From NCBI GenBank assembly GCA_001897995.1, contig MKRV01000256.1, positions 1-64,000 of the forward strand: 64,000 nucleotides of DNA, given 5' to 3'. Made by a program: the position numbers and the translations under genes. The notes beneath the pieces were generated by a model. It was not told where the DNA came from. It saw only the letters and a program-made list of their open reading frames with translations, and ran no database searches. Positions within the stretch are counted from its first letter, which is position 1. Each line of letters starts with the position of its first letter. Shown one piece after another: positions 41,987 to 59,784 of the stretch. The DNA is from Alphaproteobacteria bacterium 65-37 (GTDB lineage Bacteria > Pseudomonadota > Alphaproteobacteria > Reyranellales > Reyranellaceae).

Positions 41987-42062
<76 letters not shown>

Positions 42063-42076
42063 TTCCCGGAAACACG

Positions 42077-43461: not shown

Positions 43462-44604
43462 TTAAGGGTTCGTTACAGTCGTGGATCGATGTGATTTGGA
43501 TCGCCTTCGATCAGCGCGTTCCTGTCGCTTGATCGCTGTTGCCGCCATTCGCTCGTTGCGAGGGATGTAAGTTTCGAGAATTCGGGTGGTCTGCTCGATG
43601 GAATGCCCCGAGACAGCGCTGATCTCGACTGCCGTTGCCCCAGCTTCCGCCATTCGGACCATGCCTGTGCGTCTCAAGTCCCGGAACTGCAGGCCGTCGA
43701 GGCCGGCTGCCAGCGTCACATGTCGCCATTCATGGCGCAGGTAGTTCTCGTCCATCGGCCCGCCCGAGCGGGTGGTGAGAAAGGCCGATTGGCCATTCGG
43801 CATCTGCGCGATGTGAGCATCCAGCACGGCCTTTAGCCGCTCGTGACAGGGGACCCAAATGCGCTTGCCCGTCTTGGACTGAGACAGCGCAATTCGCTTC
43901 CCATCATAGTGTTCGCGCCCGAGCGTCAACACGTCGGTCTGGCGCTGCACCGTATAAACGGCGAGGCTGTAAGCCAGCCGTATGTGGGGCCGCGCCGGTC
44001 GATCTTCGGCCGCGTCGCAGGCTGCGAGGAACTTGATCTCGTCGTCGCTCTTCCAGACCTGATCTCTGGGCTTGTTTTGGCGCAGTTCTGGCTTTTCGGC
44101 TGGATTGTCCTTTCGCAGGCCGTAGTTGATGGCCTGGTAGAGCAGGCGACGCAGCACCACGATGCGATAGGCCGCCGTGCGCAAACCATGGTCACGGGTA
44201 AGCCGGTCCCGATACTCGAAGACGAATGCTCGTGACATCCGCTTGACTTCGAGGTCCCCGAATTCCTGGCGCATCTTCTCGATGTGCTTACGATAGTCAG
44301 TCTGCGACCGCGAAGCCAACTCGGTAAACGCCTGTGAGGCATAGTACCGAATGGCCAAGGCATCGAATGTCCCAGCGAGTGCGGGCCGTAGGCTGGAGCC
44401 TGGTAACGGCTTTTGCAGCTTCTGGGCATCGGCGTAGGCAACCCAGAACTCCGGATCGCTGAAGGGGGGAAGCTCGACGCGCGGATACCCCCGCCGTCGG
44501 AAGTAGTTGTACGTCCGACCGTTAGGCTTTTTGATAGTCTGTACGTGAGGCGGTGCTTTCACTGCGGCGTCGTTCCCGGGCCAGGAACGGATCGGTTGAT
44601 CCAT
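43462..44604 (-). CDS. int: Tyrosine-type site-specific recombinase (integrase)
   Basis: About 380 residues if started at MDQPIRSWPGND; the frame is open to 44718. The N-terminal arm- and core-binding region is followed by the catalytic domain: Arg in YTVQRQTDVLTL, Lys in SQSKTGKRIWVP, Arg in LQFRDLRRTGMVRMAEAG, His in SGHSIEQT and the nucleophile Tyr in RILETYIPR. The first residue of the usual HxxR motif is Arg here (RDLRR). It sits 1.4 kb from tRNA-Lys and is transcribed toward it. It overlaps the excisionase-like gene by 83 bp, so the two are coupled. Confidence 0.9.
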   Translation of the reverse strand: MDQPIRSWPGNDAAVKAPPHVQTIKKPNGRTYNYFRRRGYPRVELPPFSDPEFWVAYADAQKLQKPLPGSSLRPALAGTFDALAIRYYASQAFTELASRSQTDYRKHIEKMRQEFGDLEVKRMSRAFVFEYRDRLTRDHGLRTAAYRIVVLRRLLYQAINYGLRKDNPAEKPELRQNKPRDQVWKSDDEIKFLAACDAAEDRPARPHIRLAYSLAVYTVQRQTDVLTLGREHYDGKRIALSQSKTGKRIWVPCHERLKAVLDAHIAQMPNGQSAFLTTRSGGPMDENYLRHEWRHVTLAAGLDGLQFRDLRRTGMVRMAEAGATAVEISAVSGHSIEQTTRILETYIPRNERMAATAIKRQERADRRRSKSHRSTTVTNP

Positions 44605-44830
44605 CCTCGGCTGCTGCCGCATATCCACCTGCCACCAATCCGGCTTGCCTTGCAAACCATTGATTGAGGGCGTGGCTATCCCACGTGAACGTGTAGGGAA
44701 GGGGTGGAGGGAAACCATGGGAGTGGATCCAGCGCGGCAGAAGCTCCCGTGCGGAGCGCGGGCGCATGCGAAGAAATCGGGCTAACTCTTGGAGTGTCAC
44801 GGCCCGGTCCGTTTGAAAGTGACCAGACAC
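44522..44830 (-). CDS. Excisionase-like small helix-turn-helix protein
   Basis: A 102-residue protein with an N-terminal winged HTH of AlpA/excisionase character (VTLQELARFLRMRPRSARELL, then a FPPPLPYTFTWDSHALNQWF wing). This type sets integration direction and binds attachment sites. The gene lies 1 bp after the replication-initiator-like gene and runs into int, giving a compact rep-xis-int order. The C-terminal 30 residues are disordered in character. Confidence 0.65.
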   Translation of the reverse strand: MSGHFQTDRAVTLQELARFLRMRPRSARELLPRWIHSHGFPPPLPYTFTWDSHALNQWFARQAGLVAGGYAAAAEDGSTDPFLARERRRSESTASRTDYQKA

Positions 44831-49287: not shown

Positions 49288-49401
49288 CGATGCATCGATG
49301 CCGGAAAGCCACGTACGACGCCCATTGTCATCGGGCCAAAATAATTGCCGACTGAAGGATTGCTAACTAACCTCTTATACGACCAGGAGGTGCACTACAC
49401 T

Positions 49402-50595
49402 ATGGCCGTACGAAAGAGGGGAAACACCCTCGAAAAATGGGAGGTCGCAATCATTAAGGCGATGATTGCGGAGAACGCTAGATCAAATGATCAGGATATC
49501 CTCGCGTACTTTACGAGACCGTCCCGATCCATAAACCATAGGGCAATCGCCGAGATACGTAAGGACCTTAAGCATAAGGGAATCAGGGCGGCGACTTCGA
49601 CTGAACTCGACGAGTTTCGAGCGACTTGGCCGGATATCGATCTTCAAACCGGCCTGAGCACGAGGGGGGATGAACTACTTCTTAAAGCCCGAGAAGCGAT
49701 GATTGCCGCAATCAATACATTCAATGGCTTGGGGCTAACCTTTCGATCGGAACTCTTCATCGTTACAGCGATGATTGCATGGACTTATCTTATGCACGCC
49801 TGGTTCAAGCAGAGAGGAATTGACTACCGGTACAAGGTAAGGGGCCAGGTTCAACGGACCCGCAATGGCGCCGAGATGTATTGGGAGCTAGGTCATTGTG
49901 TCCGGCACGACAAATGCCCACTGCCTCGTGGGGTCGTGCAAAACTTGGAATTCCTGCTCGAACTCCGACATGAGATTGAGCACAAGTCGACTAGTCGGAT
50001 TGATGAAGCTGTGAGTGCGAAGCTGCAAGCGTGCTGTATCAACTTCAACGATGCGCTGACGCAGCTGTTTGGGCGCCACTATGCACTAGAGAAGCGAATG
50101 CCAATTGCGTTGCAGTTGGTGACATTCAATACGGAACAGCGAGAGCTATTGAAGCGGGCGTCCAATCTTCCGCAGCACATAGAGACAATGATGACTATTT
50201 TTCAGGGGGCGATGACCGAGGAAGAGCAGATGGATCCCCGGTTCGCCTATCGCGTGGCGTTTGTGCCAAAAGTGAGAAATCGTGCATCCGGCGCGGATCT
50301 TGCGATTGATTTTGTGAAAGAGGGGTCAGAAGAGGCGCGCAATATAGCCCGCGTCTTGCTTAAGGAGGTCGACAAGAAGCGTTTCACCGCTGGACAGATC
50401 GTAAAGTTGATGCAGAAAGAGGGCTTTTCAAAATTCGACATGCATCAACACACTATGCTCTGGAAGAAGCTGAATGCGCGAAAGGAGGAAGTATATGGTG
50501 GACCCGGGCCGTACAGAAACACTTGGTTGTGGTTCGAACCTTGGATTGCTCGAGTGCGTGAACACTGTACGTCTAATAAGAGCCAGTTCGCCTAG
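49402..50595 (+). CDS. DUF3644 HEPN-like protein
   Basis: A 397-residue protein. The ATG at 49402 follows CAGGAGG; the frame is open to 49345. DUF3644 features are LKAREAMIAAINTFNG, ELFIVTAMIAWTYLMHAWF and YWELGHCV, then NLEFLLELRHEIEHKS. Arg189 and His194 in RHEIEH fit the HEPN Rx4H motif. The C-terminal third has a helical domain with a winged-helix-like block (FTAGQIVKLMQKEGFSKFDM). DUF3644 proteins are frequent in defence and mobile regions; an RNase role is inferred, not shown. It overlaps the convergent recombinase gene by 4 bp. Confidence 0.8.
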   Translation: MAVRKRGNTLEKWEVAIIKAMIAENARSNDQDILAYFTRPSRSINHRAIAEIRKDLKHKGIRAATSTELDEFRATWPDIDLQTGLSTRGDELLLKAREAMIAAINTFNGLGLTFRSELFIVTAMIAWTYLMHAWFKQRGIDYRYKVRGQVQRTRNGAEMYWELGHCVRHDKCPLPRGVVQNLEFLLELRHEIEHKSTSRIDEAVSAKLQACCINFNDALTQLFGRHYALEKRMPIALQLVTFNTEQRELLKRASNLPQHIETMMTIFQGAMTEEEQMDPRFAYRVAFVPKVRNRASGADLAIDFVKEGSEEARNIARVLLKEVDKKRFTAGQIVKLMQKEGFSKFDMHQHTMLWKKLNARKEEVYGGPGPYRNTWLWFEPWIARVREHCTSNKSQFA

Positions 50596-53621: not shown

Positions 53622-54164
53622 CAGACCAGCCTTCACGACCTGATCAATTCGGTGCTGCATGACCTAGAGAAGCTGGCCATTCGCGCGGCCATCACCGGCC
53701 CAATCGTCAATGGTCTGTTCGGCAAAGAGGGGGAGAGCAGCGGCGGGGGCATCGGCAGCTTCCTGAGCAAAGCAGCGAGCTGGGCAGGCAGCCTCTTTGC
53801 CGATGGCGGTATCATGACGGCAGAGGGCAGGGTGCCGCTGCGCAAATACAGCGGTGGCGGCATCGCCAGTTCGCCCCAGCTCGCCATGTTCGGTGAAGGC
53901 AGCACTCCCGAAGCATACGTGCCGGTGCCGTCAGGCCGTATCCCTGTGGAGCTGAATGGCACCAGCCGTGGTAGCCTCGGCATGACGACGAACATCACCG
54001 TGAACGTCAATGAGGATGGCGGCGGCAAGTCCACCGACCCGGCGGGCGCAACTCGTCAGGCTCAGACGATTGCCGCTGCTGTCAAAGCCGCGCTCAACAA
54101 GCACATGCAAAATGAAATGCGTCCGGGCGGATTGCTTAATCCGGCTGGCGGGGCGGTGATGTAG
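53622..54164 (+). pseudogene. Phage tail tape-measure protein, C-terminal remnant
   Basis: About 180 codons in an open frame without a proper beginning. It has SVLHDLEKLAIRAAITGPIV, then a Gly-rich stretch and SLFADGGIMTAEG, with the GEGSTPEAYVPVPSGRIPVE segment and a final MRPGGLLNPAGGAV, all typical of the C-terminus of lambda-like tape-measure proteins. No other tail genes are near, so this is a leftover of a prophage or of illegitimate exchange. Confidence 0.8.
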
Positions 54165-55370: not shown

Positions 55371-55865
55371 TCAACTAACATTGAACCGCACGGTCCGACG
55401 TGCCTTTCGGTTCTGTGAATTCGCAACCTCCACCGTGACCGTGTAGCTGTCTGGTTGAAGCGGGGCCTTCACCAATTTGATCCCTTGGGCAGATATTTCG
55501 CCTCCAAACTCCTTAATGCGGCTTGTAATGTCTACACGCATGAACCCATAAAGAACACGAACGGAGGTTGGATCGATTACGGCCGGCGGAGATGTTCGGA
55601 AGCGAACATCGAAGTCGACGGGGGAAATAATCTTCTCACCTTCCCTGGGCAGCACGATCTCTACAACCGGGTCACTACCGGTGACGTCGTCAGCGGTGAT
55701 CCCCTTTCCGGCGCGGGGCAGTTCGCTTGCCTTCGCCGATGCCGCTCGCTCGTCCGGTGTTATGAACCACCGCTGTTGCGCGATTGCGCCGTCTCGGAGC
55801 GATCCAAGCAAAGTACCAGTAAACATGGCCAGCGCACCTCGCCAAACGGTTGCCCTCCGAAGCAT
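55371..55865 (-). CDS. Secreted Ig-like/beta-sandwich hypothetical protein
   Basis: A 164-residue protein starting MLRRATVWRG with AGGAG 6 nt upstream; the frame is open to 56075. The signal peptide (ALAMFTGTLLGSLRDGAIAQ) predicts export. The mature domain has DPVVEIVLPREGEKIISPVD, then VDFDVRFRTSPPAVIDPTSV and ends YTVTVEVANSQNRKARRTVRF, a single Ig-like beta sandwich. It is divergent from the papain-like protease gene and shares its promoter region, so it may belong to the same envelope system as adhesin, substrate or inhibitor. Confidence 0.6.
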   Translation of the reverse strand: MLRRATVWRGALAMFTGTLLGSLRDGAIAQQRWFITPDERAASAKASELPRAGKGITADDVTGSDPVVEIVLPREGEKIISPVDFDVRFRTSPPAVIDPTSVRVLYGFMRVDITSRIKEFGGEISAQGIKLVKAPLQPDSYTVTVEVANSQNRKARRTVRFNVS

Positions 55866-55922
55866 CGTCGCTCCTTTCTGCGCCACAGCGGAACGGCGCA
55901 TATTGGGACAGGCAGGTTGTAG

Positions 55923-55943
55923 CTGCAACCGAGGTAGTTGCAG
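55923..55943. promoter_or_regulatory. Inverted repeat in the divergent promoter region
   Basis: CTGCAAC-N7-GTTGCAG lies between the divergent starts at 55865 and 56074. It may be an operator for both transcripts. Confidence 0.4.
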
Positions 55944-56073
55944 CCCGCCGGGAGGCGGGGCGGCACGTCTGCGGTTGCTTATGAAAGCGTAAGGTACCTC
56001 TTTTGGTCGGTCTTTACAGCCAAAGCGCTTCCTTAGTATCCTCGTGATCAAAACAAGGAAAAAGGGAGTGAAC

Positions 56074-57660
56074 ATGGGGAGAGCCAGTTTTGCTGTAGTG
56101 CTTTCGCTCAGTTCTATGCTGAGCTTCAGTTGCCTTGCTCAAGGCGCGTCAGATCTCCAACGTTTTGGAACGGGCTCGCGAGAAGTACCGCAAGCGGTGC
56201 TAAACGCTCTTCCCCAAGTGCAGACAACGCGCGGTCCTACTAGAGGACACGCAGAACTATCTGACTACTTTCCCACGCCTAGATTGCAGTTCAACGGCAC
56301 ATGTGTCGCCTGGGCGGTAAGCAATGCTCGCGCTTACTACGCCAGAACTCGAGAAAAAAGACCGGTCGGCGACGCGAACATTCCAAGTCCTGCTTACATC
56401 TACAATACGGCGGTAGAGCCGCTGGGAGATTGCGAAGGCGGCATATCGATTGTTGATGGGCTCAAGGTCCTAAAGTCCGGTAGCTATTCATATTCGGACT
56501 ATCTACCACTTAAGGACAACTGTTGGGCACGGCCCGGCTTGCAACCAAGTGCTGCACACGACTTTCGGATCGACGATGGGGATGCCGTAAAGTTTAGTGA
56601 ATGGACCGATCAAGGATCTCGGATTCGGAACCTGGAAGCTATTAAGCAGTGGCTTGATGAAGACAACCCAGTCATTTTCGACATGAAGGTCGGCACCACC
56701 TTTATGAACCCCACAAACAAGAGGACCGAGTGGAATCCCGGCGGTTATCAAATCTACTATCAACCACGACTCGCGCCGAACGATGAAAAACTCGGTTGGC
56801 ACGCAATGACGATCGTTGGTTACGCCGATCAATTTCGTGCATTCAAGGTCATAAACTCATGGGGTACCGATTGGGCCCAAGGCGGCTTCGGTTGGATTAG
56901 CTATGATGCTATCCGCAACTACGGTCGGCTCGCTTTTGGTATCAAATTGCCAGGGGCGGTTGTGCCATTGCCAGCGCCTAACCCGGTTCCTCCAACTCCT
57001 GTACCCCAGCCCACCCCCAAACCCGATCTGATCTCGGCAGCATTTAGCTTCGTCCGCTGTGGGAAGGTCGATGTCATCCAGGCACCTGGCGGTCGGGAGG
57101 TGCGAGGGTTCGTCGGAACTCAGGCGGAAAAGGATCGCGTAGAGGCACTGGCTAGCGAATATGCTGTGAAGACAGTCAAGGTCGACCTAGCTCCCTATCC
57201 TCAATGCGAGTTGTTGACCACGCTAGCGTCTGGTCTGCGCCTAAGCGACAAGCCGCGCATCAAACTCAATGCGCCTCAAGGAGCTACTTTTACTGAAGAC
57301 ACACAAGTGGAGATTGAAGTTGTCGGTCCGGCGATACAGAGCTTTGTTCATTTGGCATACATCGAATCGAAGGGAGACGTAGTTAACCTACGCTTGCCTC
57401 TGGGGCCAAATGGTGCAGAGCAGTTTGCTCCACAGGAAATCAGGAAGGTTCGGATTACAATTCGCAAGCCGTTTGGCAACGAAATGATTGCCGCAATTGC
57501 GTCCCCAGCTCCTCTCTTCGAGAAGGGGCGCGACAAACGCGAAACGGACCGGGATTTCCTGACCGCACTTCGGATCTCCTTGTCGGCACTCCCGACTCCT
57601 TCGTCTCGGCCGCGAACATTTTCTGCTGACTACTTCCTTCTCAAGACGGTGGAGAAATAG
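56074..57660 (+). CDS. Secreted papain-like (C1) cysteine protease
   Basis: A 528-residue protein; the ATG at 56074 follows AAGGGAG. It has an N-terminal signal peptide (SFAVVLSLSSMLSFSCLAQG). The C1 catalytic residues are visible: Cys77 in FNGTCVAWAVSNARAYY, His243 in GWHAMTIVGY and Asn261 in VINSWGTDWAQGGFGW. A Pro-rich linker near residues 305-325 leads to a C-terminal region of about 200 residues with beta-strand character. It should act in the periplasm or outside. It starts a three-gene run with an OmpA-like protein and a caspase-OmpA fusion. Confidence 0.85.
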   Translation: MGRASFAVVLSLSSMLSFSCLAQGASDLQRFGTGSREVPQAVLNALPQVQTTRGPTRGHAELSDYFPTPRLQFNGTCVAWAVSNARAYYARTREKRPVGDANIPSPAYIYNTAVEPLGDCEGGISIVDGLKVLKSGSYSYSDYLPLKDNCWARPGLQPSAAHDFRIDDGDAVKFSEWTDQGSRIRNLEAIKQWLDEDNPVIFDMKVGTTFMNPTNKRTEWNPGGYQIYYQPRLAPNDEKLGWHAMTIVGYADQFRAFKVINSWGTDWAQGGFGWISYDAIRNYGRLAFGIKLPGAVVPLPAPNPVPPTPVPQPTPKPDLISAAFSFVRCGKVDVIQAPGGREVRGFVGTQAEKDRVEALASEYAVKTVKVDLAPYPQCELLTTLASGLRLSDKPRIKLNAPQGATFTEDTQVEIEVVGPAIQSFVHLAYIESKGDVVNLRLPLGPNGAEQFAPQEIRKVRITIRKPFGNEMIAAIASPAPLFEKGRDKRETDRDFLTALRISLSALPTPSSRPRTFSADYFLLKTVEK

Positions 57661-57663
57661 CCG

Positions 57664-58236
57664 ATGTCGACTATATCGCGACACGGTCTAGCATTTGCGT
57701 TAGCAGCTGTAGCGCTTCTAAGCGAAGCTAATTGGATTAGTACGCTCGCGCAGGTGGCGAGCGAACAAGAGATGCTGAATGCGCTTACTCCTGGAGGCAT
57801 CACGAGGGGAGGCGCCACTAGAGGCGGCGACGCTTGCCCGCAAACAAGAGGCGCGCAACAGGTTGATGATCAACAAGACAATACCACCAAACCGACGTAC
57901 AACCTTACGGTAACCTTCGCTACCGATTCCTCCGATCTCGAGACGGATGGTCGTATGGCTCTGAACGCACTGGCTTCGGTACTAAAGAACCCGTCACTTA
58001 GGTGTTATCGCTTCAACATTGCGGGTCATACCGATGCGGCGGGTAGCTTCGAATATAATCAGGCCCTGTCCGATCGGCGCGCAAGAGCGGTTGTCAAGTA
58101 TCTGACGGAAGAGGGCGGCATCTCATCTGACCGTTTGACCTGGATTGGCTACGGCAAGACTCGGCTTCTTGATCCCGACAATCCGACGTCAAGGGTCAAT
58201 CGAAGAGTGCAGATCACGAACCTTGGGTTTCCGTAG
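57664..58236 (+). CDS. OmpA-like peptidoglycan-binding protein
   Basis: A 190-residue protein 3 bp after the protease stop. A signal peptide (GLAFALAAVALLSEANW) is followed by a linker. The OmpA C-terminal domain covers residues 80-190, with VTFATDSSDLETDG, IAGHTDAAGSFEYNQALSDRRA and NRRVQITN. The conserved Asp and Arg of the diaminopimelate-binding site are present (HTDAAG and NRRVQI). It likely tethers the neighbouring proteases to the wall. Confidence 0.88.
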   Translation: MSTISRHGLAFALAAVALLSEANWISTLAQVASEQEMLNALTPGGITRGGATRGGDACPQTRGAQQVDDQQDNTTKPTYNLTVTFATDSSDLETDGRMALNALASVLKNPSLRCYRFNIAGHTDAAGSFEYNQALSDRRARAVVKYLTEEGGISSDRLTWIGYGKTRLLDPDNPTSRVNRRVQITNLGFP

Positions 58237-58254
58237 GGCTGAAGGGAGACAGTT

Positions 58255-59784
58255 ATGGTGCTGGTCGCTTGCCCGTACGTAGCTGCAGGCTTGCAAGTTG
58301 CATCGCGTACAGTTTCGGTGCGCGTTCTACGTTGCGTTGCCTTGGCGAAACGCGTGCAAGGACTGCTTTGGATTGCACTGGCCCTCGCAACGTCCTTGGT
58401 AAACAGCCCAGCGATGGCGGAAAGGCGGGTGGCGTTGGTAATCGGGAACGGCGAGTATTCGAAGGCAGAAAGTGGATGGGATCCATTGCCAAACGTCGCC
58501 CGTGATGTGACAGCTATTGCGAATATTCTACGACAGCTCGGTTTCGATGTTGTAGGCGGTGCAAGACGCAATCTTGGGCGGGCGGAGTTTATGTCTGCGC
58601 TTCAGGAGTTTGGGAACAAAGCACAGGGAGCCGATTGGGCGTTGATCTACTATGCCGGGCATGGCCACAAGCTTGGGGAAGTAAACTACTTGGTGCCGAT
58701 CGACAGCAAAGTCAGTGGCGACATCACGCTCGATGCGCTTCTCCCCAGCGTGAAGATGGCAAAGAGTGTCAAGTTGATTATCTCTGACGCCTGCCGCGTT
58801 CCAGTGGACCAAAGCTCTAACGCGCAGCCCCTCGGCTTGCCGCCCGACGGAACAGGAGCTGTATTCGTTTATGGTGCTCAGGCCGGGATGTATTCTTACG
58901 ATGGAAACTTTAATCAAAATAGTCCATTCATGAAGGCGTTGCTCAGGCACATAGCAACGGACTATCTAACGCTGGAGACAGTTTTTTCTCGAGTCCATCA
59001 CGATGTTATGGCTGAGACTAAGAACTACCCCCGAGGAATGCAGGTGCCAACTCAATATGGCATATTTCCGGAGGAAGCATCTTTCACCAGCAATCTAGGT
59101 CCTGAACCGATTTTTTTTCCTAAGAATCGAGGTCCGATGAACTTCATTCCAGGAGGTGGTTGGCTTGTTTTTTTTGATTGGAATAACACAAACTTATCTG
59201 CGCAGGCTCTAGCGACCATTGATCAAGTAGCTTCTGCGTATAAGGCAAGTAACGCGTCCAGCATCCTCCTGACGGGAAATTCCGACACCGATGAGGTGGT
59301 GAGATACAAGTCCGGGTTATCACTCGATCGAGCCCGCGCAATTAGAAAGGAGCTTGTTAAGAGAGGCATTTCTGCGCAAGCGATCTTGGTGCAAGCTCGC
59401 AAAGATGAAGATCGGTTAGTTCCAACTGGCGAAGGTGTCAGAGAACCACAGAACCGAAACGTCGAAATAGTCCTTCATGGCGAAACCCCAGCGCCATCGA
59501 TCAGCTGGCAGATTACGAATAGCACTTCGGGTGTCATCGGTTACAAACTCTTTGCGCCTGATCGAAAATGGGTGTGGCCAGGAGCAAATACAGCTTGGAC
59601 GCTAAAGCCCGGGGAGACAGCGAATTTTAAGGAAAAATGCTTACAGGGTGAGAAGGTCTGCTACGGCGCTTGGGACACAAACGGAACTTGGGGTTTAGGG
59701 GCGCATGGTGACCTTGGGTGCTCAAAGTGTTGCAATACCTGTGGTGTCGAAGTTAAAGCATCTCCGATCAACCTAGGTAAGTGA
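58255..59784 (+). CDS. Envelope caspase-OmpA fusion protein with Cys-rich end
   Basis: A 509-residue protein with three parts. After a long n-region and signal core (LLWIALALATSLVNSPAMA) comes a caspase-like (peptidase C14) domain with His136 in YYAGHGHKL and Cys180 in IISDACRVP. Residues 310-425 form an OmpA-like domain (LSLDRARAIRKELVKRGISA, NRNVEIVL). The last 90 residues contain a Cys-rich module (CLQGEKVCYGAWDTNG, CSKCCNTCG). The ATG at 58255 follows AAGGGAGAC. The combination puts a caspase-fold protease on the cell wall, downstream of a papain-like protease and an OmpA protein. Confidence 0.88.
   Translation: MVLVACPYVAAGLQVASRTVSVRVLRCVALAKRVQGLLWIALALATSLVNSPAMAERRVALVIGNGEYSKAESGWDPLPNVARDVTAIANILRQLGFDVVGGARRNLGRAEFMSALQEFGNKAQGADWALIYYAGHGHKLGEVNYLVPIDSKVSGDITLDALLPSVKMAKSVKLIISDACRVPVDQSSNAQPLGLPPDGTGAVFVYGAQAGMYSYDGNFNQNSPFMKALLRHIATDYLTLETVFSRVHHDVMAETKNYPRGMQVPTQYGIFPEEASFTSNLGPEPIFFPKNRGPMNFIPGGGWLVFFDWNNTNLSAQALATIDQVASAYKASNASSILLTGNSDTDEVVRYKSGLSLDRARAIRKELVKRGISAQAILVQARKDEDRLVPTGEGVREPQNRNVEIVLHGETPAPSISWQITNSTSGVIGYKLFAPDRKWVWPGANTAWTLKPGETANFKEKCLQGEKVCYGAWDTNGTWGLGAHGDLGCSKCCNTCGVEVKASPINLGK

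Follow-up and report, generated by a model that had tools for sequence, protein, structure and literature searches.

The role of caspases in bacteria is a long-open question, and most of the attention has gone to cytoplasmic caspases. Described orthocaspases and other bacterial Peptidase_C14 proteins carry a His/Cys dyad with accessory domains fused behind it (PMC3501461), and in an EACC1-associated two-gene system a constant caspase is followed by highly variable C-terminal domains (PMC7159879, system 4). A second point of comparison is the T6SS threonine-phosphorylation pathway (PpkA, PppA and the periplasmic activators TagR, RtkS and TssW), in which PpkA receives its input through its periplasmic domain, with which partner proteins in the periplasm or associated with the outer membrane make contact (RtkS, PMC6082577; TssW, PMC12607579). 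In P. aeruginosa this pathway is set off by outer-membrane damage (PMC11881912), and the periplasmic domains of PpkA vary among species (PMC6082577). Here we describe a gene set, assembled from known protein families, that brings together a papain-like protease, an OmpA-family protein and a caspase, and of which no published account was found in the open-access literature.

The set lies in the window, by which we mean the whole stretch of 64,000 nucleotides that was analyzed (Alphaproteobacteria bacterium 65-37, contig MKRV01000256.1). The features at the locus are as follows.

55374-55865, minus strand: small exported Ig-like protein, assigned by homology, divergent from the trio
55866-56073, no strand: divergent intergenic region, 208 bp
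56074-57660, plus strand: papain-like (C1) exported protease, 528 aa; assigned by Peptidase_C1, conserved residues and homologues
57664-58236, plus strand: OmpA-family protein, 190 aa; Pfam OmpA, conserved Asp124 and Arg139
58255-59784, plus strand: exported caspase (C14)-OmpA fusion, 509 aa; Pfam Peptidase_C14 and OmpA

The open reading frames recovered at 55371-56075 (-), 56044-57660 (+), 57664-58236 (+) and 58255-59784 (+) reproduce the tight packing of three genes described by an earlier sequence-only reading of this DNA, with gaps of 3 bp between the papain and OmpA genes and 18 bp between the OmpA and caspase genes. The start of the papain gene was placed at the ATG at 56074, which has GGGAG just before it and from which the catalytic residues are numbered; the OmpA gene begins 3 bp past the papain stop codon, with its GGAG inside the 3' end of the papain gene, and the caspase ATG is preceded by an AAGGGAG ribosome site. 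A single sigma-70-like site (56013-56042, plus strand) was found in the 208-bp region, a number no higher than chance expectation there. An N-terminal hydrophobic segment was recognized by eye in all four proteins, and the products of the trio are apparently all exported and wall-linked.

The papain-like protein consists of a hydrophobic N-terminus, a catalytic domain, a Pro-rich linker and a C-terminal DUF4384 region. Its score against Pfam Peptidase_C1 is 22.2 bits for a cut-off of 20.7, which is weak taken alone; the scores of two homologues, 53.6 and 48.1 bits, nevertheless make the assignment firm. The catalytic residues named earlier, Cys77, His243 and Asn261, were found again in the translation and, together with Gln72 (oxyanion), are invariant across the three papain copies, namely those of the window, of G043 (a genome of the window's genus) and of G352 (a genome of another family in the same class); the Gln-Cys spacing is one residue shorter in the window papain. 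Among solved structures the closest in sequence is 3ois, annotated as 'Cysteine protease', which we take to be xylellain, and a single-sequence AlphaFold2 model of the papain had a mean pLDDT of 34, too low to be of use. The second conserved half of the protein, at about residues 311-528, contains DUF4384, for which the scores (Pfam cut-off 27) are 16 bits in the window, 29.3 in G043 and 34.5 in G352. The window score thus lies below the cut-off; by sequence, the region is clearly homologous.

The separate OmpA protein, which had been read as wall-binding, matches Pfam OmpA at 78 bits with the peptidoglycan-contact residues Asp124 and Arg139 invariant. The caspase likewise bears out its earlier description as a fusion with its own OmpA domain and a Cys-rich end: it scores 108.5 bits against Peptidase_C14, with His136 in a YAGHG motif and Cys180 in DACR, the residues named before; an OmpA domain of 47.9 bits with Asp and Arg kept follows at about residues 300-410, and the Cys-rich tail covers about residues 411-509. 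The single-sequence AlphaFold2 model of the caspase had a mean pLDDT of 40. Two further genomes in the class have homologues of the Cys-rich tail that are small, exported and stand-alone (CYGA...WGVG...C..CC..C), and the tail found no match in a search of plasmids.

A tree of OmpA domains indicated different histories for the two anchors. The window OmpA protein pairs with that of G352 (support 95/83), and the OmpA domain of the caspase clusters with the OmpA porins of the host genome itself (96/92), which suggests that the wall anchor of the caspase was probably grafted from the host lineage. Proteins of the OmpA family from T6SS/kinase loci and from caspase loci join the OmpAs of the trio, apart from the host porins, in a weakly supported group (54/78). 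Both caspases of G352 carry PG_binding_1 instead of an OmpA domain; by their domain content and the tree, then, caspases of different loci bear wall-related parts of different descent.

Co-occurrence of the three architectures in other genomes was the check set in advance, and it was found: in G352 the genes papain, OmpA, caspase, caspase follow one another in the same direction, the first two being 4 bp apart, and in G043 a papain-OmpA pair is divergent from two caspases. Among the genomes searched, these two and the window are the three that carry the full set. The full-length papain is rare, being present in 2 of the 76 genomes of the order, in 2 of 385 genomes of the class sample (the window counted) and in 1 of 398 genomes of the phylum sample, this one being the window; within the order, the OmpA partner is confined to the two genomes that have the papain. 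Caspases are far more widespread in the order (31 of 76 genomes), and the idea that a papain-OmpA pair stands beside every one of them proved false, as those inspected outside the set had neither the papain nor this OmpA. The papains of G043 and G352 are 47% alike and either is 33-36% alike to the window papain, although G043 shares the window's genus, which speaks for transfer. Relatives of the proteins of the set on plasmids are mostly from Alphaproteobacteria, and a scan of a contig collection returned only a Burkholderiales kinase that shares the C-terminal region.

The small number of examples, and C-terminal parts of the caspase that vary by locus, could suggest that unrelated exported proteases share an operon by an accident of island assembly. 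We regard this as highly improbable, because the same gene order recurs in a different family and no complete caspase in the three genomes lies anywhere but at the locus: in PF00656 searches 1/1, 2/2 and 2/3 of the caspases lay there, and the one left over is a 117-bp fragment where a contig ends. If placement were random, a caspase no more than 6 kb from the papain would be expected in each of the three genomes with a probability of about 1e-8. The catalytic residues are also conserved in all papains and caspases of the three sets. From these comparisons we conclude that the genes form a real recurrent unit. The earlier view of the locus as an envelope protease unit thus stands as regards a recurrent group of genes, apparently exported and wall-linked, with catalytic residues kept in all copies; the cascade attached to it stays a model, which is taken up below.

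The fourth gene had been described as a secreted Ig-like gene divergent from the trio. The arrangement holds, and the start has moved: homologues of the protein align from 55865, which makes this the likely start rather than 56075 and leaves the divergent region of 208 bp. The protein is distantly homologous (1.2e-6) to small exported Ig-like proteins whose genes, in three further genomes of the genus (G015, with two copies, G062 and G064), immediately precede a caspase gene. The family has 12 members in the order, 5 of which, including that of the window, are beside a caspase, and the caspases of G015 and G062 retain His and Cys (YFAGHG, DNCR). As no Ig-like gene is found beside the set in G043 and G352, we regard the protein as a likely partner of the set, though an optional one. 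The Ig-like-caspase pair represents a second neighbourhood in which caspases recur; in two of the three relatives a gene for a zinc-ribbon coiled-coil protein lies next to it.

The set is cargo of an integrative island of about 26.8 kb at a tRNA-Lys gene, bounded by a 53-bp perfect direct repeat, with a GC content of 0.50-0.62 inside and about 0.61-0.71 outside. Its features are listed below.

41987-42062: tRNA-Lys gene, overlapping attL
42018-42070, no strand: attL, 53-bp perfect repeat of the 3' part of the tRNA-Lys gene
43462-44718, minus strand: tyrosine integrase (Phage_integrase, 46.3 bits)
49345-50595, plus strand: DUF3644 protein of the candidate phage-defence family PDC-S19 (PADLOC, 363 bits), cargo outside the set
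contig 64071-68518: McrBC pair, the McrB-like protein having a long N-terminal extension
contig 68792-68844: second copy of the repeat, beyond the end of the window

Further island genes encode a serine recombinase, an SRAP protein and an HNH protein. A C-terminal fragment of a phage tape-measure protein (53652-54164; PHROG 1292, 111 bits) stands alone in the island and is probably a prophage remnant.

The company of McrBC and PDC-S19 on the same island raises the question of whether the set is itself anti-phage defence cargo, with exported proteases that hit phage proteins at the envelope, or kill or arrest the infected cell. Its sporadic distribution would fit this explanation, as would a DNA methyltransferase with a restriction-like C-terminus (by eye) that adjoins the set in G352. 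However, the PADLOC caspase model reached just 21.5 bits on a partial match and the papain had no match, so that the PADLOC defence systems were rejected; known caspases of defence systems are cytoplasmic, whereas those described here look exported; viral and phage collections held no relatives of the set; and no defence genes lie next to it in G043. Taken together, these observations make a defence function rather unlikely.

A profile built from the C-terminal halves of the three papains matched the extracytoplasmic C-terminal part of Ser/Thr kinases in G072 (8e-21), in a Burkholderiales genome (1e-20) and in G073 (6e-16), as well as the DUF4384 protein of the Tateyamaria omphalii plasmid pDOK1-4-5 (6e-30). 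With E-values of about 1e-20, these matches show that the C-terminal half of the papain and the portion of T6SS-linked Ser/Thr kinases outside the cytoplasm are homologous. The kinases of G072 and G073 are flanked by PP2C and TssM genes, with ShlB/FhaB-type genes on the other side. A search of the class sample with the C-terminal region gave five loci besides the window, G352 and G072, and four of them encode kinases: that of G427 is beside PAAR and VgrG-like genes and the OmpA type of the trio, that of G205 beside Hcp- and TssB/C/F-like genes, and that of G407 beside TagF, TssM, PP2C and a caspase (T6SS names in all three by eye), and that of G126 has PP2C only alongside; G301 has the non-kinase member. 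In G407 (L116, 736-16998) the caspase forms one run with genes for PAAR, an FGE-sulfatase-like protein (by eye), the DUF4384 kinase, PP2C, TagF and TssM. An OmpA of the trio type also adjoins the kinase in a T6SS-ShlB cluster of Ruegeria, and lies inside a T6SS-ShlB cluster in Rhizobium lentis; in Bradyrhizobium sp. 192 an OmpA gene is divergent from a caspase. No T6SS gene stands beside the trio itself, and no Ser/Thr kinase, PP2C phosphatase or T6SS gene was found among the island ORFs or at the loci of G043 and G352.

The presence of ShlB and FhaB genes nearby in G072, G073 and Ruegeria allows another reading, namely that the proteases serve the maturation of surface or secreted proteins (e.g. 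two-partner-secretion adhesins) and not a response to damage. An example is Paracoccus, where one run of genes encodes a caspase and an adhesin together with a ShlB-type pore and a related OmpA. The sets themselves argue against it: neither a ShlB nor an adhesin gene was seen next to the set in G043 or G352, downstream in the island or among the window's island ORFs, and we consider a maturation role doubtful.

The reading that we prefer, and hold only tentatively, is that the set constitutes an envelope-located proteolytic response unit. By this model, DUF4384 and OmpA would form an envelope input pair with an interchangeable output, which here would be two cysteine proteases. The separate OmpA protein and the OmpA domain of the caspase may hold the proteins on the peptidoglycan, and the DUF4384 region and its OmpA partner would report a disturbed outer membrane or wall, an analogy drawn from PpkA, whose periplasmic part is the input and for which outer-membrane damage is the trigger. 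Such a disturbance would release or activate the papain head, which would then activate or cooperate with the wall-held caspase, the order of papain before caspase being a guess. The caspase would be expected to cleave after Arg or Lys, as orthocaspases do, and the proteases would process periplasmic targets; the whole would travel as cargo of an integrative island. The link to sensing of envelope attack gains indirect support because T6SS threonine-phosphorylation loci feature both the C-terminal region of the papain and this type of OmpA. The response unit stays a model because the periplasmic domains of PpkA vary and no demonstration of damage sensing by DUF4384 was found in the open-access literature, where this domain is rarely mentioned. 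A bolder form of the model, to which we assign a rather small probability, is that the damage-input module of T6SS kinases (DUF4384 with its OmpA partner) was split from the kinase and joined to proteases, giving a mobile, T6SS-independent periplasmic cascade, with the papain acting before the wall-anchored caspase, that would answer an envelope breach by proteolysis, not phosphorylation.

An intact caspase dyad and wall-anchoring domains that place the enzyme at the peptidoglycan could also be read, by analogy with what is often proposed for bacterial caspases, as signs of regulated lysis or cell death. Yet the set includes no lytic enzyme, pore or antitoxin, and the link between caspases and death in bacteria is not established, with no clear correlation (PMC3501461), so that such a role appears improbable here. 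Returning to the envelope response unit, a compact mobile set with an apparently exported, wall-linked caspase allows the function of caspases to be tested genetically in a concrete way. The region held in common with T6SS kinases offers a testable input which, if the model is true, would connect caspases, DUF4384 and T6SS sensing.

Compared with known systems, the set resembles the T6SS threonine-phosphorylation pathway in that the C-terminal half of the papain is similar to the extracytoplasmic half of PpkA-like kinases and that, in Ruegeria and G427, such a kinase has an OmpA of the trio type as its neighbour. Unlike that pathway, it has no kinase, phosphatase, Fha or T6SS gene, and its enzyme head is an extracytoplasmic protease; membership in the pathway was therefore rejected, as the extracytoplasmic module alone is common to both. 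With orthocaspases and bacterial Peptidase_C14 proteins the caspase shares the family by sequence, the His/Cys dyad and accessory domains fused behind, but it looks exported, is OmpA-anchored, has a Cys-rich tail and is linked to papain and OmpA genes. The likeness to the EACC1-associated system lies in a constant caspase followed by highly variable C-terminal domains; the window caspase, however, looks exported rather than cytoplasmic, and identity with that system was rejected given an NCBIfam score of 38.8 bits against a cut-off of 140 and no EACC1 gene upstream. Short bacterial C1A peptidases of the xylellain type include the solved structure nearest to the window papain, which differs from them in its DUF4384 half and its place in an OmpA-caspase operon; a C1-DUF4384 protein also occurs in Persicobacter, without OmpA or caspase neighbours. 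Finally, on the Tateyamaria omphalii plasmid pDOK1-4-5 the DUF4384 protein has no papain head and the caspase no OmpA domain, yet the genes for DUF4384, OmpA and caspase share the order and strand of the window, with a homologous DUF4384 protein and a homologous caspase.
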